Source of the DNA: Dastarcus helophoroides
Lineage: Eukaryota > Arthropoda > Insecta > Coleoptera > Bothrideridae
Length of the DNA: 64,000 nucleotides
Reading direction: 5' to 3'
Assembly: GCA_028583605.1 (NCBI GenBank)
Contig: CM053336.1
Span: 24,723,004-24,787,003, forward strand
The stretch's first letter is position 1; each line of letters opens with the position of its first letter. The translations under genes were made by a program, and so were the position numbers. The notes below the pieces were generated by a model. It was given only the letters and a program-made list of their open reading frames with translations. It did no database searches and had not been told where the DNA came from. Below are positions 12,511 through 57,650 of the stretch, piece by piece.

Positions 12511-13744
12511 TATCAGTGATTGACAACTGCAAAGTTTTAATACATTTGAATTGCTATCATAACAAACCTTCTGATGGAAAATTCTCATTTTTTGGATGTA
12601 GAATGGAAATTGTTACTGCTCTAGACTGTTTTATAAATTTAAGCTTTATATCTGTAATTTTGATCATTTCTTGCAATTGGTTTGCTATTTATCATATTAT
12701 TAGGATTTTATTGATATAAAATATTTAAATAGATTTATGTAAAATTTCTATCAGGAGAATATAAATATTCATTTTTACAGAAATGAAGTATATTTCAAGA
12801 ACGAAACAATATATAATTTAAAATTTTACATATATTGTTTGATTTATTAAATATTCATGAAAAATAATTATGTTGTGAACGGCGCCTCATAGTGTACTGG
12901 TCCTTCGAATATTTAACAACAATCAATTTAAATACCCGAATAGTGATCGGCATCGGCAGTTCAGATTTCTAGCCCAATATTCGGAATGCAGGCAGTAGAC
13001 CCGTCTAAAAATGTTTGGAAGGTGGTATCGGAAAATCAATTTTGGCGAACTATAGAGTACTTCTCCCTTATAGTCCGAAACTTTTTGAAAAAGAGCATCT
13101 TGTAATCTGAATAATTACATATAAAAATGATGAGATAAAATCTATACTTAAAATTATACAATATTAAACTTCACGAATTAAGCAACAACAAAATAATAAT
13201 AATAAATAACACAAGGTTTATTACAGAATTAACGTAATACGTATTGTTGTAAATCAATACATATTTTATATAATTATTATTATTTACAACTTCGAAGATA
13301 CATAGATAATTGTCGTGGTGAATTACAAGGGATGTCGGATAAAACAAGGGTCTTCGTCACTAAGATTCTAGCCTTAATAATCTAAATAAATAAAGGTTTC
13401 ATATTTCAACACGATCGGTAAAGAGGTTATGAAATTATTAATTAAATTATTTTTTATAACAACTTTGAAAGTCTGCAATTCGAAACATTTTTTTTTTTTT
13501 TCGTAATTCGTATTTATTTATCATTCCGAATCAACTGCCAACGTTGTCTTTGAAATTTGTAAATACCCTGTATAACCTTGTATGTTAAATAAAGTGTTAA
13601 TTATGTTTCTATTTGGTGTTATCATTTCCAATGTCTCCGTTGGTTGCAAGGATTGCGAAATCTGTGAATTTTTTTCTTAAATTTCGAAAATATATGAAAG
13701 TAAGGAATTTAGTATTTAATATAATATTTTTTTATATTTATATT
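12511..13744. other. Unassigned AT-rich DNA
   Basis: I see no gene. A 67-aa plus frame (12516-12719) has no recognisable domain. The 12880-13080 part is of higher complexity. A tataacc-containing phrase near 13566 resembles a TIR end, but I found no partner for it. Confidence 0.4.
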
Positions 13745-14914: not shown

Positions 14915-15190
14915 TTGTTATGCATTACTCATAAGCTCAAAAGAGAGCAAAATATCGATGCCCAGTGCTATAATTTATGTAAAAAAAATTATTTTGGTTC
15001 TTTATATTTCATTTTTTTCCATTCTGTGTAAAATAAACCAACCTATTACTTGTCAGCTGTCGTAAGGTAACGTTTTAAGAATTTAGATATCACCTATCGA
15101 GATTTAAAAAAAAATGTTTTAGAATACTGTCAACTTTCATTTCTAAAAATTTAAAGGTTTTTAAATTAAGTTTCCAAAATTTTAATTAAA
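14915..15190 (+). repeat. HH-A dispersed repeat copy with dead ribozyme
   Basis: This copy has the same order of parts as those at 56075 and 21295: a hammerhead-like 5' end (14922-14968), attctgtgtaaaataaacc, cgttttaagaatttagatat and tagaatactgtcaacttt. The ribozyme part keeps the outer helix and the helix II sequences. Its catalytic boxes have mutated: CTGACGA to CTCATAA and GAAA to AAAA. It is therefore predicted to be inactive. Confidence 0.7.
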
Positions 15191-21294: not shown

Positions 21295-21635
21295 GTTTTG
21301 TAATTTTATTTAACATTTTTTCGGCCCAGTGTGGAAATATTTAAATTTTTATTTGTTGACAATATTCTAAAACAGCTTTTAAAATATGACTACTTGATAT
21401 TTAAATTTATCTAAAACCTCACCTCATGACAGTTGAGATAAAAATGGGTTAGTTTATTTTGCATAAAATAGGAAAAAATTAAAAATAGAAGACCAAAATT
21501 AGATATGAAAAAATTTTGCCTTTCTGATAAATTATGAAAATATAAAATTGTAAAAACAGATAAAATACATAAAAAAGGTTGTAGCACTAGACATCGATGT
21601 TTCGCTCTCATTTGAGCTCGTCAGCAGTGCATAAC
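21295..21635 (-). repeat. HH-A dispersed repeat, best-preserved copy
   Basis: On the minus strand this copy reads, in order, the hammerhead ribozyme, tacaaccttttttatg, a ctaattttggtcttc block, ttatgcaaaataaac, cacctcatgacagttgag in antisense, and tattgtcaacaaat. The same order is found at 56075-56372 and 14915-15190. At about 340 bp with no coding capacity it is a non-autonomous unit. The ribozyme-then-CAACCTTT layout parallels the PLE terminal repeat at 26233, so it may be an orphan PLE terminal repeat or a retrozyme. Confidence 0.75.
21584..21630 (-). ncRNA. Hammerhead ribozyme, type I, HH-A
   Basis: On the minus strand every universally required element is present with correct spacing. 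Helix I is GCACTG (21625-21630) pairing with TAGTGC (21584-21589), including one G-U. The core box is CTGACGA (21618-21624). Helix II is GCTC (21614-21617) with GAGC (21604-21607) around a 6-nt loop. GAA is at 21601-21603. Helix III is ACAT/ATGT (21591-21600) with a 2-nt loop, followed by C17 (21590). Cleavage is predicted between 21590 and 21589. The very short helix III suggests it works best as a tandem dimer or with protein help, as for known retroelement hammerheads. Confidence 0.8.
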
Positions 21636-21639
21636 ATTA

Positions 21640-22457
21640 ATATTAATTAAATTGACTAACGCTAAAGAGTCTTCGTCCCTCAAAGAGGGGTCAAAGATGC
21701 TATTTTATCATTTAGTGGCATGGCTGCTACTTGATGACTGCTACTTTGATGTGCGTTCAAAATAAATCGCTGTTAAATCACCGCCATGTCACTGTCAGGC
21801 CTGTGCCACGTCATATGCCACGCTATTTTGGTGGGCGCTCTCCATTAACAATATTTTTTTAATATCAATTTTTTAATATAATTATGTTTTGATATCAAAA
21901 TTTTGACATTAATTTTTTTACAAAATTTTGTTTAATTCGATCTTTTTTCTCAATTCACGAGTTGAGACTAGGTTTTCTAATATTACGACCTTTAGCTAAA
22001 AATTTTAAGTAAAACAGTTTGATGGTTTAAAAAATATTACTTTTATTTTATTGACTCGAAATTTGACAAAAAAAAATACAATTTTTAAAATTTTTCCTAA
22101 AACTTTGGTGCTTTTCTCAATATTTTGAGTTAAAAATTAAAATTTTATTTCCAAATTTAAGTTTTCAAATGTAATTTGTGGAAATTTTTCCTCGTAATTG
22201 TGATTTTAATATTTACTAATTTTTGTGAAATCTTGCATTAAAAATTTATATATAACCTTTCGACCTTATATGCAATATAGACTATTTTCAAAGAACTTCA
22301 CTTTACTTCCAAAATTTACCCTTAAAATTTCGAATTATCATTTGGAAATGTCAAAAATTACAAACTAAAATTGAACATTTATTTTGGGCAATTATATTTA
22401 TATATTTTTTTTTTTCGAAATTTGCCCACTAATGTCGAAATTTCAATGAAACTTTAA
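21640..22457. other. Unassigned and low-complexity DNA
   Basis: No gene. 21660-21850 is of ordinary complexity. From about 21880 the tract becomes T-rich quasi-periodic phrases (aaaattttgacattaattt type) up to the foldback element. Confidence 0.4.
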
Positions 22458-24612: not shown

Positions 24613-24628
24613 CAATTATACTTATTAG
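24613..24628. repeat. Possible PLE target-site duplication, left
   Basis: caattatacttattag occurs here and again exactly at 26330-26345, just outside the two ends of the Penelope-like element. A 16-bp perfect direct repeat bracketing the element is best explained as the target duplication. Confidence 0.6.
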
Positions 24629-24666
24629 TTTGATGGAACGGACTGGTCCTTGGTTATCTTCAAAAA

Positions 24667-24996
24667 TTGAAACACAGAACTTGTCCCCTGAAACCAAGAA
24701 AAATTAAAAAACACAACAAAGGTTGCTCTAACGCGTTTCGACAGCCAAGCTGTCATCTTCAGAGAGAAACTAACATCTAATCTTAAAATTAACCCTTATA
24801 TACTAAGAATATTCACTTCGTGCGTGATCGGCCGCACCCGAACGCGCATCCAATCATACACGTCGTTGTGTCACAATTTCTTATCATCAACCTTAACTAT
24901 TTTTAACAGGGATGAATGGCCTAAAGGTCCAGCGCAACCATTCATAAGGTTGTTTCCAGCCTTATGGATGGCTAAGCTCTCACATGCATTTAACAT
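24667..24996 (-). repeat. PLE inverted terminal repeat, left
   Basis: Near-exact reverse complement of 26002-26332, including the hammerhead-like motif, the 3' UTR and the last ~35 codons of the GIY-YIG frame. It makes the ends of this PLE able to form a long hairpin. Confidence 0.9.
24726..24766 (-). ncRNA. Hammerhead-like motif in PLE left repeat
   Basis: Minus-strand copy of the motif at 26233-26273, with the same helices and the same extra U next to helix II. Confidence 0.5.
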
Positions 24997-25035
24997 TTTT
25001 ATTTATTTATTATTATTATTATTATTATTTATTTA

Positions 25036-26118
25036 TAAAATTATTTCCAAATTAATAACGAATTTTATGAACAACTTGAGGGAGCAGCCATGGGGAATCC
25101 TTTGTCACCTTTCATGGCTGAGCTCTTCATGGGTGTTTTTGAAAGTCGTCTTAAAAATGAATGTAGTTTGTTTCCTAGGGTATGGATTAGATATGTAGAT
25201 GATATTTTTGCTATTTTCGACACAAAAAATCAAAATTTAGATAATTTCATTGATGTTTTAAATTCACGTTTTCCAACAGTTAAATTCACTGTAGAATTAG
25301 AGAAAGAAGCCGCTTTACCATTTTTAGACATTTTAGTTATTAGGAATAAAAATAGATTAGAATTTGATTTATATAGGAAAGATTCCAGTACCTTCCGCTA
25401 TATAACTTCCGATTCTAACCATTGCATACAGCACAAAATGGCAAGCTTCAACTTCCTTGCCCATCGCCTTCTGAGTCTTCCTCTTAGTAGGGAATGATTC
25501 AGAAAGGAGTTAAAGACAATAAAACATATAGCTGAAGTTAATGGATTCGATCCAAATATTATTTATAAAATTATTAATAAGAAAAAATTTAAATGTGAAT
25601 TGGTGAATACTACAACTTTCCGAGCTGATGAAAACAAAAACTTTAAATTCGTCTCACTTCCATTTGAACCCTCGCTCACGCAGGGTTTGGGTGGAATTTT
25701 ACGCAATTAGGGTTTTCGGGTTATTTATACTTCTAATGGAAAATTAAATTCGCTTTTAGGTAGTTTAAAGGATAAAGTAGAGCAAACAGATAAGTCTGGT
25801 ATTTACCAAATTTCATGTAGGGATTGTCCTCAAAAGTATGTTGGACAAACTAGACGATCTCTTAAAATCCGACTCAAAGAACATTTGGCTCATTTGAGGT
25901 ACGGAAGAACTGAGAAGTCAAGTGTGGCTCGACATGCTTTTGAATTAGATCATAGGATAGATAATGATATTAAATTGTTAAGAGTAGTTAATAAGAATTA
26001 TATGTTAAATGCATGTGAGAGCTTAGCCATCCATACGGCTGGAAACAACCTTATGAATGGTTGCGCTGGACCTTTAGGCCATTCATCCCTGTTAAAAATA
26101 GTTAAGGTTGATAGATAA
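25036..26118 (+). pseudogene. PLE polyprotein: RT (partial) plus GIY-YIG
   Basis: One frame reads YFQINNEFYEQLEG, then AAMGNPLSPFMAELFMGVFE, then WIRYVDDIFAIF with the catalytic YVDD at about 25192-25203, then LPFLDILVIRN, typical of the PLE RT palm. A linker follows, and then GIYQISCRDCPQKYVGQTRR (about 25798-25857), the GIY-x10-YVG signature of the endonuclease, with RLKEH and a conserved His-rich stretch after it. In-frame stops at 25495-25497 (TGA) and 25708-25710 (TAG) break it. The RT fingers and N-terminus are absent, so this copy cannot transpose by itself. A TTA-rich simple repeat (25007-25029) marks the 5' truncation. Confidence 0.9.
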
Positions 26119-26332
26119 GAAATTGTGACACAACGACGTGTATGATTGGATGCGCGTTCGGGTGCGGCCGATCACGCACGAAGTGAATATTCTTAGTATA
26201 TAAGGGTTAATTTTAAGATTAGATGTTAGTTTCTCTCTGAAGATGACAGCTTGGCTGTCGAAACGCGTTAGAGCAACCTTTGTTGTGTTTTTTAATTTTT
26301 CTTGGTTTCAGGGGACAAGTTCTGTGTTTCAA
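26002..26332 (+). repeat. PLE inverted terminal repeat, right
   Basis: Covers the end of the GIY-YIG frame, the stop at 26116-26118, the 3' UTR, the hammerhead-like motif and the terminus gtttcaa. Inverted copy at 24667-24996. Confidence 0.9.
26233..26273 (+). ncRNA. Hammerhead-like motif in PLE right repeat
   Basis: Helix I is CTCT (26233-26236) with AGAG (26270-26273). The core box is CTGAAGA (26237-26243), where the variable seventh base is A. Helix II is a 6-bp GACAGC/GCTGTC stem with a TTG loop. GAAA follows, and helix III is the palindrome ACGCGT with GTT as the cleavage triplet. A single extra U lies between the core box and helix II, unlike the canonical fold. Hammerheads are known in PLE terminal repeats, so the assignment is plausible, but activity is uncertain because of that base. 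Confidence 0.55.
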
Positions 26333-26345
26333 TTATACTTATTAG

Positions 26346-39310: not shown

Positions 39311-40157
39311 TGCTCCGGTTAAAGGCCCCGCATTAATTTTAGATTGAATTACTTCCAAAATCAGATACTGTGATTAGGGGCATTAGGGGCAATTTCGTGC
39401 TGTACTTATGAATATTTTCTGACGTGATATGATTGAATTTAATGCTGTTGACAGTTGAGTGTTTTCCTAATCACAGGTATATAGGCAAATCGTTTGCTAT
39501 TATTTCCTATAAAAAGCAGGTAATCATAAGCCCCAATCCCCGGTGGAAATATGTTGGTTTCCATTTAGAAAGTCGACTTGCCAAGAACGATCACTTCCGG
39601 AAGTTTTTAAATAAATTAATGTTTAGATAAACTCATTGGCATGCATAGAAAAAAGAAAAAAGTCAGAATTCCAGAATTTAAAAAAAAAAATAAAAAAAAA
39701 TAAAGGGCTATAAAAAATTGAGATCTAGGCAAAAATTTTAGGTAACAAGTAAAAATTAAGAGTGCTTGGAGTTATGAAAAATTTGTTTCGAAAATTTTAC
39801 AATTTGTGAAATTCATTTCAGCATGCATCAAAATTTGGAAATTAATGTTAATAATTGCAGAACAAATCAAGCTGTTTTGACAAAATTAAAAATAAAATTG
39901 AAATCATGTGCCCGAAGTGTTGGGGAAAAGATTTTCAAAGAAAACATGAATGCATATTAAAAAACATTATCGAAACTTAAACTTTACAAATAACGTTTTT
40001 TTTAAAAAAAAGATAAAATTTGGGAGTAATATATGGATGACTGCAAAATGAAATAATCCCAAAAAACAGTTATTGAGAAATTGATAGTAAAGGTTTGACA
40101 CTAGTTTATAAATTACTAATACAAATAAACACTTATTAATAAGTAACATATTTTGGT
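39311..40157. other. Unassigned, then AT-rich phrase block
   Basis: No gene. A 65-aa plus frame (39433-39630) has no known domain. A-rich low-complexity phrases start near 39650. Confidence 0.4.
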
Positions 40158-40208
40158 GGTAGTACTAAAGAGTCACTCGCTCGACGCCTGTGATTGTTTT
40201 AGTACTTA
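40158..40208. repeat. Hairpin upstream of HH-B ribozyme
   Basis: tagtactaaag near 40158 and ttttagtactta near 40195 are inverted, closing a loop of about 27 nt. It lies directly upstream of the long HH-B hairpin and may be part of the same element. Confidence 0.55.
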
Positions 40209-40215
40209 CTTGTCG

Positions 40216-40316
40216 GAACATTTATTAGCATTCGAGTTGGATATACCAAACTGACGAGATCTAACAAGATCGAAACCGGTATTTGGTTTCCAAACTTCGA
40301 ATCTAATAAATGTTCA
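40216..40316 (+). repeat. HH-B element core, long imperfect hairpin
   Basis: gaacatttattagcattcga (from 40216) pairs with tcgaatctaataaatgttc (to about 40316), extending helix I of the central hammerhead far beyond the minimal ribozyme. The same layout, more decayed, occurs at 59510-59645, including the 3' phrase aaacctattggtctgt. This shows a dispersed repeat family rather than a chance motif. Confidence 0.7.
40245..40287 (+). ncRNA. Hammerhead ribozyme, type I, HH-B
   Basis: All core positions are intact. Helix I is ACCAAA (40245-40250) with TTTGGT (40282-40287), 6 perfect pairs. The core box is CTGACGA (40251-40257). Helix II is GATCT (40258-40262) with AGATC (40267-40271) around an AACA loop. 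GAA is at 40272-40274. Helix III is the palindrome ACCGGT (40275-40280), followed by A17 (40281). Cleavage is predicted after 40281 at a GTA triplet. With no loop in helix III a monomer would fold poorly. A dimeric transcript or extended helix I would be needed, as known for minimal retroelement hammerheads. Confidence 0.85.
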
Positions 40317-40479
40317 AACCTATTGGTCTGTGCATTATAGAACATATTTTGACTTAAAATGTGTAAATATAATGTATTTATTTACCTTTTATCAAAAATA
40401 ATATGTCTACTGAAATTTTTTATTTATGTTGGTTGCTTTCTTTTGCAAAATAAGACCTTGTACATTACTGTGTAAAAAA

Positions 40480-51756: not shown

Positions 51757-51925
51757 TATGATTTTGGTGGAAAGGACTGGTCCTTGGTTATATTTAAAAA
51801 TTGAATTACAAATTATGTCTCCTGCAGTATCTCTCTGAAGTTGATAGCTTGGTCATCGAAATGCGTTAGAGCAACCTCTGTTGTGTTTTTTAATCTTTCT
51901 TGGATTCAAGGGACAAGATTTATAT
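51757..51925 (+). repeat. Collapsed PLE terminal-repeat relic
   Basis: Starts with the PLE left-edge phrase ggactggtccttggttat and attga-type terminus (compare 24642-24670). It then jumps into the sense-strand terminal repeat from ctctctgaag onward (compare 26233), ending at ggattcaagggacaag. The hairpin arm between is lost. The hammerhead-like core at 51831-51871 has mutated in helix II (gatagc/gtcatc), so it is probably inactive. Confidence 0.7.
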
Positions 51926-53073
51926 TTTAATTTTTAAAAATGTGATTGTTAAATCAAGGGCAAATATTTCCATTAAAACTAAAGATAATTTAGGTAGTTC
52001 CAATGTTCGTATTCATTTTGGTGTAAAAATATAAGGAGAAAAACTACTTGAAGATATTCTGTCAAAAAACACGTTGCTTATAGTTTTTATTGTTAAAATA
52101 ATATGCTGCATTATTTTTGTCTTCCTAAAATAGGTAATATTAAAAAAGATATACGTGGTTTTAAAATGTCGATTTTTTTTTAAAGACTTTGGCTTAGGTC
52201 CACGCGACTGCTGAAAGCAATAGCTCGTTACCGAATGATGTAACTTGGACATCGGAAGAATTTCGGAAGGATGGAAATAACACCTACTGAAACTGACATG
52301 TTAGCTACAAGAAGTATCTTAGACTTTACGAAAGACCTAAAAGACGTTGAAATAATTTGGATTGGGTTATTCGCAAAATAACCATATTTATTTAGTTAAT
52401 ATCCTGCCCAACAAAAACATTTTCAATTACAGAGCATTTAAACTTCAACAAATATATAAAACAAGACACAAATTACTATAATCATAAAAATATAAATAAC
52501 ACAAAAACCTATAACAGATAAATTAAAATTGCTGTACTCTAAGGAAATATAAGATATAAATATAAATAAATAAATATAAAATAATGATTACAAATCAAAC
52601 ACACATTTCTGACATAAAATTCAAATTCGAGCCAACAATCCAAAAAATTGCATGCATTAGTTTAATTTTAGGTAAACACATTTTCTTAATACCCAAACAA
52701 ACATTATCTAGCAACAATCCAACCAGGATAACTAAAAACTAAGGAACGTAATGTTATTAAATTGCTAAAATAGATATAGCAAGATCCAGATATAGAATTT
52801 ACGTATTTTACTATGAAATGGATAGGCGACTTACGACCAACATTGGTACGTGGCGTTGTAACATAGTTAATACCATCGATGATATTAGAACAAACCACAA
52901 CCTTGATCGTGGTCTACAATAAAAACATTATTTTACCCCAGTTACCATAAGCAACTTTTCTGGCACCATTTCGAAAATCAAAGCTTATTCAGTTAGCATA
53001 CAGATGCAAGATCCACATACTCAACGTCATCAACAGTAATATAAATAAATAATATAAAAATAATAGATAATAC
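51926..53073. other. Unassigned AT-rich DNA
   Basis: No gene recognised. Minus frames at 52013-52252, 52704-52898 and 52989-53186 have no domain I know; the last overlaps the 5' LTR. Confidence 0.4.
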
Positions 53074-53582: not shown

Positions 53583-54714
53583 ATGGAACAACAATTGCAA
53601 TACTACCAATGATAAAAGATAAAAAGAAAAAAGAAAAGAAAAGGAGAAATAACAAGAATAATAAAAAGAAAAGAAGCAAGAACAAAGACGATAAGAAATA
53701 AAAGACAAAGAACGAAGACGACAAGAAAAAGAAGAAGAAGAAGAAGAAAAACAGAAAAGGAACGCAGACAAACAAGAATTGCATTGTCTATTAGCAAATA
53801 TAATAGAAAAGATCAGAGTAGAAGCTGCACATTAAAAAAAACAAATTACAGGAATGAAAGATGAGATGGAAGAAGTAAAAGTAGAAATTGCAGAAATGAA
53901 AGGAGTCATGGTCGAAAAAGAATTCAACAGCGAGCTTCTTAATTTGGAAAATGCAACACAGAAAAAATCTGCAACATCGAAAATAATATGAAAAAGCTGC
54001 TAAGTGGACAATTCGCACAACATGAATCTAAAAGTGTGCCTGATATTTCTTCCCAAAAGGTAAAACCGCTGACTTATGATGTGAAAACATCCCTTGAGAT
54101 CTATAGAAAACAGCTGGAAGCTGTTGCTAAGGCCAATCGGTGGCCGGGGGAAGAAAATACGACCTAATTGGTGGTATCCCTGCATGGAGAATTTCTGGAA
54201 CTACTCCGAACTCTATCTGATCACGAACTAGCTAACTATAAAGATCTTGTTAGAATTTTAGAGATGAGATTTGGGGACCACCATTTGCAGCACATTGTTC
54301 AGTCGCAGCTGCTAGTAAGATGGCAGAAAAGTGGCGAAACGCAGTAAGAATTCGAGACTGACGCGTATCAAGGAAAGCACGGATTAGAGCTTTGGAGGTT
54401 GAAGCCGCTTACAAGGTTTCAGAGCCAAGAGCGCCACGCAGAATAAGAAAGGCCGACATCAAAGAGACTGCGAATTACCCTGATCTTGCGAGCATGAGCG
54501 CTAAAATAAAGGAAATAGACGCAAACATGAAAGTAAAGGAAATGAACACGAACATAAGCACTAGCCTGAAGAAAATGGACGCGAGCATCCAAGAACTGGT
54601 AGGAACTCCTAAAGGCAGATCCAACAGAAGCACAACATATTACAACTGTGGCAAACCGGGGCACTTTAAGAAGGACTACAGGTCAGCCCCAAAAAGTCGA
54701 CAAGCCCCACAGTA
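53583..54714 (+). pseudogene. gag: gag pseudogene
   Basis: After a Lys/Glu-rich N-terminal region with stops, one frame reads KPLTYDVKTSLEIYRKQLEA, VAKANRWPG, ELLRTLSDHELANY and LVRILEMRFGDHH, the capsid-like core of arthropod Ty3/gypsy Gag. After shifts, 54392-54714 reads LEVEAAYKVSEPRAPRR and ends with a zinc knuckle, YYNCGKPGHFKKDY. There the first and last Cys of CxxCxxxGHxxxxC are Tyr, so zinc binding would be lost. Part of the middle is also deleted. Confidence 0.85.
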
Positions 54715-56006
54715 GGAAAATTAAAAAAAATTAACCATTGAGAAGGGGCACTCACTGGCTGGGGCCTGTAACATAAACCTTACAAGTCCTACAATTGTAA
54801 GAAATTATTCTACACTTGCAGTTATTCCTTAGCACAACGCAACTTGTAACATCAATGCGGCGCCAGTAATTACGGAAAAAATATCACACATCTAAGGGGG
54901 TACTTTTATGTTACAGCATACATTTGGAAGTGTAGACTTATCTATTTTCAATTTATTTTTGTCCAAAACGGCTCTAACGCTTTGAAATTACAATTTAGAC
55001 AGGTGCCATGCCATTTGGGATTACTAATTTTTAAAGACATCTTGATTCTTTAGATAGGGCCGTCGTCATGTATCGTATTTATTGTTAAATATATTTTATA
55101 AATTATTATGGCTAGATATGTATGATTCAGTATAATTACCGACGAATAAATAATTTCAAAACGAAAAACAAACTTCCTAAAATTGTCAACGGCTTTCTTT
55201 GTGATAAACAAAATCGCTGTCTTGGCAGTCTAGGCACAAAATAAATAATATTTTACTTATTTTGTGGCCTAATGATATTAACGGGCATTTGCTTTTATAA
55301 AAATAAAGAACTCAGGGCTTTCCATTGCTTTTTCCGGGGCTTTCAACGTGCTTCTGCTGCATTGTTTTCTTATAGATTAGCTAATACATTTGTATCATAT
55401 TAACTATACCTATAGGTCCTACATATTTCGGTAACACAACGCAATTCGCTACAATTGTAGAAACTCCGCGATTCTTTACATATGCAGCCTATACATGCAA
55501 CAAGTTATATCATCGGGAAAGCCAGCTTCTTATTTTTCTTCTTTAGAGAAAATAAATATTTATTCAGAAAATCATGTCTAGATATTAAAAAATTATTACT
55601 ATTTTATTATTTCCAGAAGAACCATTTAGGTATCATTTTCGTGATCAAATTTAATCGAAATGCGTGTAATATTTTTTAATATCCTTAATTATTAGTAAGG
55701 TTTGTACTTTTATAATAATACAATAAATGATTTCAGTTATGTTCTTCAATTTTTTTTAATTCTTTTCAATGACTTTTAGAATCGAAGGATCGCAGTATCG
55801 GATTTAGATTTGGCTTAGGAGTAATAATGATCTTTATATCAAGCAAAATTTATTGGTCGCAAACAAGACTGATGTTTACGCTAATGGTTTACTATAATGT
55901 TTTCGGACTGCAAAATCAGACATATGCGATTAGGGCGCAAATTGGATATGCTCATACATAATTATATGCATGCACAGGATTAACTTTTTTACGAGCGTAG
56001 GAAAAG

Positions 56007-56074: not shown

Positions 56075-56372
56075 CCTTTTTGATTTATGCACTGCTGACG
56101 AGCTCAAATGTCAGCGAAACATCGATGTCCATTGCTACAACCTTTTTTTATATTTTTAAATTTTATAATTTATTAAAATTTTTTTTCATATCTAAGTTTG
56201 GTCTTCTGTATTTTATTTCTTCCCTATTCTATGTAAAATAAACTTACCTATTTTTTGTCAACTGGCTTCAAGTGACGTTTTAAAAAAATGTAGGTATCAC
56301 GTAGTCATATTTCAAAAAATGTTTTAGAATATTGTCAACCTTCATTAATAAAAATTTAAATTATTCCAAATT
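56075..56372 (+). repeat. HH-A dispersed repeat copy in gypsy
   Basis: Plus-strand HH-A copy with hammerhead, ctacaacctttttttata, tctaagtttggtcttct, ctatgtaaaataaac, atcacgtagtcatatttc and gaatattgtcaac. It ends at the junction with the gypsy pol region. Confidence 0.75.
56089..56135 (+). ncRNA. Hammerhead ribozyme, HH-A, slightly mutated
   Basis: Helix I is GCACTG with CATTGC (one mismatch). CTGACGA (56094-56100 region), GAAA and helix III ACAT/ATGT are intact, as is GTC at the cleavage site. Helix II is weakened to three pairs (GCT/AGC). Activity may be reduced relative to the 21.6-kb copy. Confidence 0.65.
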
Positions 56373-56399: not shown

Positions 56400-57650
56400 C
56401 AAGCCCCTAAACTTTTTATCAAACAGATAAAAAGGACCATGGAAAGTTTGGTAGTGGAAAGCAGCTTAAATGGAAGGAATGTACAGACAACAGCAGATAA
56501 AGGAGTCATGGTTTCTTTACCACGCAGAAATATTCTACATTGACAGTCAAGGGTACTGGCTAAAAGAATGGTCCCCAGAAGAGTTACGGGAGGCACTGCG
56601 CCAATTATAGGAGAAGCAGACGTCATGATGGGCCTGGGAAAACTGCGAATTTTGCATCGGGTGTTGATGAACGTAATCAGGCAAACGGCTTTACTTTCGA
56701 CCCAGCGCAGAACATTTTAAGGATCAGAAAAAGAAGGTAAGACTATTTGCCTGCGAAACAGCTGTGGTGCAGGGAAGCATTGAGAAGACTATTATGGCTT
56801 TGATGGAAATATATTTGGGCTGCAGTGTTGAATTAGTGGAACCGACTTATGACATTTCCAAGAATTTACTAGTGTCGAGATGCGCGGTTAGAACATCTCA
56901 GAAGGTACCTGTGAGAGCTGTCAACGTATTTCCAATAGCATGCTCAATCAAGAAGGGTAGTACTCTGGCAGTGTGTACCCTCAATAAGCTCATTAGGTGG
57001 CAATTGTGCGCCAGTACAGGAAAAGAAGATTGAGCAAGTCAAGTTGGATGTGGACTTAAAACACCTGTCCAAGGAAAAAGTAGTTCTGGTTAGATGATTT
57101 CTACAGAAGAACCCCGGCGCTTTTACCAATGGAGGTCAAAATCTAGGAAGGACGGACGTAGTCCGACATAAAATAAACACCGGCAATGCAACACGTATTC
57201 TTCAACCCTTAAGAAGATAACCTGCAGCCAAGCAAGACAAAGTCGCTGGACTAGTTAAGAAAATGATGAAGGAAGGAGTCATCGAGAAGTCCATTAGTCC
57301 ACGGTCTTCCCCTGTAGTCTTGGTTACAACGAAGGACGGGTCAAGAAGATTCTGTGTCGATTACCAAAAAGTAAAAGACATCACTAAGAAGGACAGCTAC
57401 CGCTTGCCAAGAATTGATGACATACTAACAACCTTGCCTGGGTTCACCTGGTTTTCAACTCGGGACTTAAAAAGTGGATATTGGCAAGTGTGCACGGATC
57501 CTGATGACAAAGGGAAGACGGCCTTTTCATCTGGGAGTGGATTATATCATTTCACACTTATACCTTTTGGACTATGCAACGCACCGGCTACCTTCGAACG
57601 TCTAATAGAACTGGTACTTCAAGGGCTTACTTGGAAAACCTGACTTCAGC
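56400..57650 (+). pseudogene. pol: pol pseudogene: protease relic and RT N-half
   Basis: A frame starts SLVVESSLNG followed by TTADKGVMVSLP, where the aspartic protease DTG triad has become DKG. Next comes a conserved linker (SVELVEPTYD, KVPVRAVNVFP, IKKGSTLAVCT). Then the RT fingers and palm read MKEGVIEKSISPRSSPVVLV, FCVDYQKVKDITKKDSYRLP, WFSTRDLKSGYWQV and PFGLCNAPATFERLIELVLQ, ending GLTWKT at about 57641. This is immediately before the catalytic YxDD, which is deleted. The first RT Asp (STRDLKSGY) remains. Confidence 0.9.

Follow-up and report, generated by a model that had tools for sequence, protein, structure and literature searches.

The hammerhead ribozyme motif at positions 40245-40287 of the window, i.e., the 64,000-nt stretch of Dastarcus helophoroides contig CM053336.1 analysed here, belongs to a new family of metazoan-type retrozymes, which we call HH-B and which is non-autonomous and built on a unit of about 380 nt. 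Very probably, HH-B is mobilised in trans by a Penelope-like element (PLE) that works from circular or multimeric RNA, the insertion grammar having been compared between HH-B and PLEs only. Thousands of HH-B insertions record the habits of the responsible enzyme, and these match unusual habits published for a PLE.

The motif spans 43 nt of the forward strand, and an exact type I hammerhead core with exact spacing can be read off the sequence: the CUGANGA and GAAA boxes, the three helices, the NUH triplet (GTA) and an open-ended helix I are all present. The 5′ strand of helix I, ACCAAA (40245-40250), pairs with its 3′ strand, TTTGGT (40282-40287), and the two enclose, all on the plus strand, the core box CTGACGA (40251-40257), helix II with the strands GATCT/AGATC and the loop AACA (40258-40271, also found in the fold), the core box GAAA (40272-40275), and the palindromic helix III, ACCGGT (40275-40280). 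The consensus position places the predicted cleavage at GTA^TTT (40281-40282, plus strand), in agreement with the original prediction of a cut before 40282. Past a small internal loop, the 6-bp helix I is prolonged by a 25-bp stem, which gives the predicted hammerhead hairpin around the ribozyme (40216-40315, plus strand); the slightly longer stretch 40213-40318 folds at -39.5 kcal/mol (z -8.55), and none of 200 shuffles reached so low an energy.

A strict hammerhead descriptor had two matches in the window, namely HH-B and 21624-21590 on the minus strand, while 200 first-order Markov windows together gave two matches, none with helices as long as those of HH-B. In this way the predicted type I architecture, with its exact spacing and palindromic helix III, was borne out. 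It had also been argued that the helices are compensated beyond chance: the improbability of such helices arising by chance stands, with no equal helices in the 200 Markov windows, but compensatory change among the copies does not clearly exceed that in shuffles. Among 68 distinct copies, which are very alike, 96.3% of the cells in the helices are paired versus 96.2% after shuffling, and double changes occur in four helix pairs, a number reached by 41 of 500 shuffles.

The proposed check with covariance models was likewise divided. Hammerhead_HH9 (RF02275), which has the type I topology and the core in common with HH-B, is the best Rfam family in E-value mode (2.5e-7 over 231 nt and 6.9e-5 over the entire window), but its 34.4 bits lie below the cut-off of 52, and at the gathering thresholds Rfam has no match to the HH-B hammerhead. 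The assignment to type I rests on the motif for this reason. Neither the sub-threshold score nor the missing covariation signal overturns the motif, because the insertions described below show an active mobile family around it, and both the hammerhead motif and the dispersed repeat are confirmed as real.

Among other RNA-like features of the window, 13626-13717 (plus strand) resembles a Tetrahymena H/ACA snoRNA below the Rfam threshold (37.4 bits versus a cut-off of 100), which is probably due to chance, and ARAGORN found no tRNAs. A second hammerhead family, HH-A, is present at 21567-21640 (minus strand), 56080-56152 (plus) and 14915-14989 (plus), with the helix III palindrome ACATCGATGT. The copy at 21.6 kb is intact and those at 56.1 and 14.9 kb are decayed; they have in common a body of about 300 nt that contains TTCTGTGT, and fragments of this body occur at 9.2, 10.5, 13.7, 14.5 and 30.8 kb.

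The search of the source genome (538.9 Mb, 50 contigs) with the 37-nt HH-B core, allowing at most three mismatches, gave 3347 forward and 3323 reverse matches, i.e., 6,670 in total, and the reversed-pattern control gave none. The original prediction of a dispersed non-coding repeat is thus upheld at the level of the genome and not of the window, in which BLAST found no second HH-B copy. A single-copy status had been considered, as BLAST on the window and a genome DNA search that skips common words were both empty, and was discarded in view of the thousands of pattern matches. The repeat is also not the 100-nt foldback hairpin first proposed: seven tandem HH-B units measure 366-384 nt, and the hairpin is internal to this unit of about 380 nt, in which no open reading frame with a reverse transcriptase (RT) or a GIY-YIG endonuclease was found. 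Prokaryotic or viral relatives were rejected as well. The pattern CTGANGAN{8,18}CGAAACCGGTA matched at least 117 genome-contig and 40 viral-contig stretches, mostly by chance since the descriptor finds a single hammerhead-like match among these loci; the exact HH-B core had no match in the viral contigs, and plasmids and phages gave no HH-B match. That single match, with a longer helix III, lies in the viral contig IMGVR_UViG_3300013947_000058 (L149:708-742, minus strand).

To describe the insertions, positions are given in a 380-nt unit whose first base past the cleavage site is u1 (so that cleavage falls at u380/u1). The sample comprises 100 places with the exact core among the matches listed, which fall in 79 loci on a single contig, C1, from 0.46 to 8.70 Mb; with the window added as one cluster, and after dropping duplicates and clusters less than 60 nt from the end of a locus, 98 insertion clusters with 160 arms were available. 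The 3′ ends of 138 of the 160 arms fall at two internal sites of the unit, 78 at A (about u60) and 60 at B (about u210), with 22 elsewhere. In the BLAST alignments, the A ends fall at about u61-62 and the B ends at u210-212, and base-level inspection guided by the duplications sets them a few nucleotides earlier, after ...TCTGTGCATTATAG and ...TTCTTCTTGCA, respectively. The 5′ ends are scattered, and only eight of 160 lie within 4 nt of the cleavage site versus 3.8 expected. Target duplications of at least 10 bp flank 41 of the 98 clusters, 23 of them being exactly 12 bp, the mode, while 484 cross-paired flanks used as the null gave none of this length (maximum 9 bp). Single HH-B copies are without terminal repeats.

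It could be supposed that HH-B is a MITE-like hairpin DNA repeat with a hammerhead-like sequence arisen by chance, as it combines a strong hairpin with an AT-rich target and its duplication; yet the hairpin is internal and not terminal, and several features point to reverse transcription, namely 5′ ends that vary while the 3′ ends are fixed, units in tandem and arms paired head to head, which leaves this explanation scarcely credible.

The window copy consists of 185 nt on the plus strand (40156-40340), a single A-type arm that starts at about u255, passes the cleavage junction and stops at site A, as defined by BLAST and by the 11-bp direct repeats AACATATTTTG that flank it at 40145-40155 (left) and 40341-40351 (right). 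Repeats of 11 bp or more at such a geometry occur at 0.36% of the 8,986 window positions tested, or 0.03% if all four letters are required. The BLAST span is 40155-40342 (u254..u61), with 99% identity to the unit of locus L166, and the GC content of the insert is 38% versus 23.4% and 23.6% in the 500-nt flanks. Along the plus strand, the copy begins with predicted hairpin 1 of the unit, AGTACTAAA...TTTAGTACT (40161-40207; the segment 40156-40215 that covers it has a fold z of -3.3), continues with the ribozyme hairpin, and then carries CCTATTGGTC (40319-40328), which in the predicted fold of the 380-nt unit is half of the closing stem of lobe 1 and whose partner is cut off here. It finishes at the mapped site A end, TCTGTG-CATTATAG (40327-40340).

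The arrangement of the insertions follows a rule. Head-to-head (-+) pairs make up 50 of the 98 clusters and tail-to-tail (+-) pairs none; there are also three -++ complexes and 43 single arms (24 ending at A, 13 at B and 6 elsewhere). Of the 50 pairs, 40 are A/B, four AA, one BB, and five have an untyped end. When only pairs with a duplication of at least 10 bp are considered, all 32 are A/B (17 in the order BA and 15 in the order AB), with no such duplication among the AA, BB or untyped-end pairs. Single arms with duplications of this length end at A in seven of eight cases, and two of these seven carry remnants of B, of 9 nt (L220) and 6 nt (L215). Moreover, eight of the 24 single A arms have their start immediately beyond B, at u208-222, versus about one expected; of the 51 paired A arms, four do so. 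We found no report of a retrozyme with such an A/B pairing rule in the openly accessible literature searched.

Inverted pairs invite another explanation, namely that the same retrozyme is moved by a LINE-type enzyme and that the pairs are ordinary twin priming. Twin priming of LINE-1 does yield 5′ inversions, but ordinary twin priming takes place at variable internal sites, whereas the outer ends of HH-B are fixed and always of opposite type (the 32 of 32 given above). In favour of this explanation, LINEs as well as PLEs have been considered as possible mobilisers of metazoan retrozymes (PMC7229834). All considered, including the evidence from PLEs given below, we regard a LINE-type mobiliser as distinctly improbable.

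The target itself is palindromic. Forty oriented HH-B sites conform to the motif TNRNY|W(N10)W|RNYNA, which is symmetric on the A and B sides, with frequencies of 0.82 for T-5, 0.87 for Y-1 and 0.97 for W+1 at one border, and 0.77 for R+1, 0.80 for Y+3 and 0.78 for A+5 at the other; the window target, TAAGT|AACATATTTTG|ACTTA, agrees with it on both sides. Since the arms directly adjoin the duplications, we infer that the target was opened with 12-nt 3′ overhangs and that both 3′ ends acted as primers.

The same grammar is found in the PLEs of this genome. The window contains one at 24629-26334, with GIY-YIG and RT frames in a head-to-head inverted arrangement and with two different 3′ ends, flanked by the direct repeat ATACTTATTAG at 24618-24628 and 26335-26345; its frames are in pieces (RT at 25039-25497, GIY-YIG at 25711-26118), and a protein search with the GIY-YIG frame retrieved four metagenome relatives. 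A decayed second copy at 51757-51941 is two-armed with unlike ends. Another retroelement of the window has a zf-CCHC (zinc-knuckle) frame at 54362-54715 and an RVT_1 frame at 57221-57643, and the direct repeats D2 and D5, at 53.1-53.4 and 58.1-58.4 kb, are possibly its LTRs. The pLTR of the PLE holds the motif CTGAAGATGACAGCTTGGCTGTCGAAACGCGTTAGAG, similar to a minimal hammerhead, with ACGCGT as its palindrome and an additional T preceding helix II; this motif had 7721 + 7469 matches in the genome and none in the control.

We compared 32 PLE places with HH-B, comprising the two of the window, four loci chosen for closely spaced minus and plus motifs, and 26 taken in list order. Their 3′ ends are of two kinds, A′ (...TTCTGTGTTTCAATT) and, some 36 nt beyond it, B′ (...GTTCCATCAAA). 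Wherever both outer ends of a head-to-head pair could be typed (17 pairs), one is A′ and the other B′ without exception, two further pairs having an untyped end. At 16 of the 32 places the duplication is 10 bp or longer (5 of 992 in the null), and at 18 it measures 9-16 bp. This repetition of the A/B rule, together with the fact that two fixed internal starts are a published property of PLEs (PMC11167929), further argues against a LINE-type enzyme. The target sites are also related. A matrix was built from 82 HH-B site halves, and on it 36 halves of PLE sites scored higher than random flanks (p 2.6e-5 in register and 0.002 at the best shift), and the 20 halves with 11-13-bp duplications reached p 5.7e-7, although the fit to the HH-B motif is partial, with A at position +5 at 0.44 versus 0.78.

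A small sequence likeness accompanies this common grammar, in that a TCTGTG box lies 8 nt before end A both in HH-B (40327-40340) and in the PLE at A′ (26321-26334), with a rough chance probability of about 1%; it is possible that this box is a recognition signal of an enzyme common to both elements. The box, the common insertion grammar and the hammerhead-like motifs of both could also be taken to mean that HH-B is no independent retrozyme and derives from one PLE family, either by internal deletion or from its pLTR, and it has been suggested that retrozymes originated from PLEs (PMC11722881). Such a descent seems unlikely to us: beyond TCTGTG no similarity is seen between the HH-B unit and the PLE of the window, and the ribozymes are unlike, that of HH-B having an extended helix I and a 5-bp helix II and that of the PLE being minimal with the extra T before helix II. 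HH-B works like a PLE and is not itself one.

The arms also tell which form of the RNA was copied. In the 40 A/B pairs, 36 A arms and 28 B arms extend through the cleavage junction, and 22 of the 80 arms are longer than one unit, the longest reaching 1,334 nt; therefore, self-cleaved linear monomers are not the usual template, and circles or uncut multimers can serve as such. Ten diagnostic sites were compared. Within long arms, one turn matches the next in 128 of 155 comparisons versus 91 expected; between the arms of a pair (34 pairs, each arm 60 nt or longer), 79 of 85 shared sites match versus 70% in shuffled pairs, with none of 2000 shuffles as high. This agreement of turns and arms points to one RNA type per insertion, although the likeness of arms may also come from conversion between them after insertion. 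The ribozyme segment alone, in 15 pairs, shows no extra likeness of arms (2.0 versus 1.96 differences).

A 380-nt circle is predicted to fold (-131.7 kcal/mol) into two lobes with a hinge between them, formed by pairings of u58-62 with u197-201 and of u49-53 with u205-209, so that A and B would be located on opposite strands of the hinge. The PLE tail was considered as a structural equivalent of lobe 2 of HH-B and dropped, as by itself it folds at only -2.3 kcal/mol. From the position of A and B we derive a tentative proposal, to which we give somewhat less than an even chance, that a single RNA, probably a retrozyme circle, is read from both target strands simultaneously. With a dimer of the Penelope protein placed on the hinge, each target 3′ end would then be given one start site, and if this is true, the A/B pairing, the agreement of the arms and the single A arms that stop just past B would be its footprints.

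As a monomer, helix III (ACCGGT) would have one A-U pair and a CCGG loop, and between two molecules it would form six pairs. Of the original description, a loopless helix III as in dimer-acting PLE and retrozyme hammerheads, the palindrome stands, but the monomer would have a one-pair helix with a CCGG loop, and helix I has a looped extension. One pair plus a palindromic loop is the form described for newt and axolotl retrozymes (PMC7229834), and this form of helix III, along with the looped extension of helix I, places HH-B nearer to canonical retrozymes than to the minimal hammerheads of PLEs.

In the lowest-energy fold computed for the single hairpin (-38.1 kcal/mol), CUG of the core is paired with CGG of helix III, which is inactive, and the fold with helices I and II only (-34.5) lies 3.6 kcal/mol above this optimum. 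For two molecules, the hammerhead fold reaches -78.3 kcal/mol versus -78.6 for the cofold optimum and -76.2 for twice the monomer optimum. Newt-type hammerheads are reported to act as dimers (PMC7229834; PMC6155905), and the predicted two-molecule fold of HH-B fits such dimer-acting motifs. The inactive preference of the single hairpin is what would be expected if the ribozyme were a non-working passenger, with selection only on the structure recognised by the PLE; also in keeping with this are the unclear covariation among HH-B copies and the finding that cleavage by the PLE hammerhead is dispensable for insertion in vitro (PMC11167929). Opposed to it are the core, helices and cleavage triplet, which are kept in most of the 69 aligned HH-B copies, and the dimer fold with its intermolecular helix III, predicted to lie within 0.3 kcal/mol of the best two-molecule fold. 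A passenger role appears improbable on balance, and a retrozyme whose ribozyme would be expected to cleave is the reading followed here.

The cycle that we propose would proceed as follows. In transcripts with two or more units, the hammerhead would be expected to cut, and the products might then be circularised; a putative Penelope-like protein would bind RNA with an intact hammerhead junction, either a circle or an uncut multimer. This protein would nick both strands of its AT-rich palindromic target, with 12 bp between the nicks. Both target 3′ ends would then serve as primers for reverse transcription, which would start from internal site A on one of them and from internal site B on the other. 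Joining of the cDNAs by their 5′ ends would give a head-to-head inverted insert flanked by duplications of about 12 bp, and a B arm that is almost nil would give a single A arm, as in the window copy.

Many of these steps have been reported for PLEs. The purified protein of an anole PLE cuts and extends both DNA strands, and its reverse transcription starts at two adjacent internal sites of the RNA, which explains the tail (PMC11167929). According to the same source, this protein is a predicted dimer and prefers AT-rich DNA for cutting, the start site did not differ between the strands in vitro, and unprocessed RNA was used, ribozyme cleavage being dispensable. Genomic PLE insertions are described as head-to-head with a one-sided tail of 31 bp (PMC3846280). 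PLEs have been named as likely helpers of retrozymes (PMC7229834, PMC8969392, PMC11722881), because the two coexist and share features (PMC7229834). HH-B makes this question directly testable and favours templates with an intact ribozyme junction; it contributes evidence at the level of insertions to the helper proposal, together with an in vivo rule (each insertion combines an A end with a B end) that goes beyond the in vitro work.

Compared with known systems, HH-B can be likened by description to the schistosome Sm-alpha and newt satellite hammerheads (PMC6155905), which are type I motifs in a short repeated non-coding element. With the PLEs described in PMC3846280 and PMC11167929 it has in common head-to-head arms, two 3′ ends, short duplications, AT-rich targets and a hammerhead in the repeat; it differs from them in having no RT or endonuclease, in the extended helix I of its ribozyme, and in the spacing of the start sites, about 150 nt versus about 36 nt in the PLEs of the same genome and 30-40 nt as published. 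The closest likeness is to the metazoan non-LTR retrozymes (PMC7229834), with a short tandem unit (about 170-400 nt as published and about 380 nt here) and a type I hammerhead. Both are without protein, occur in high copy number, coexist with PLEs, and have a weak helix III of the axolotl form with a palindromic loop; as in that class, HH-B has no LTR, and its target duplications are longer than 4 bp (mode 12 bp). For the metazoan retrozymes, expression and circles have been demonstrated (PMC7229834), whereas HH-B is described here from the genome sequence; relative to what the accessible text of that report describes, it is the insertion chemistry that is resolved here, with two fixed starts of reverse transcription, A/B pairing, 12-bp duplications and a palindromic target.
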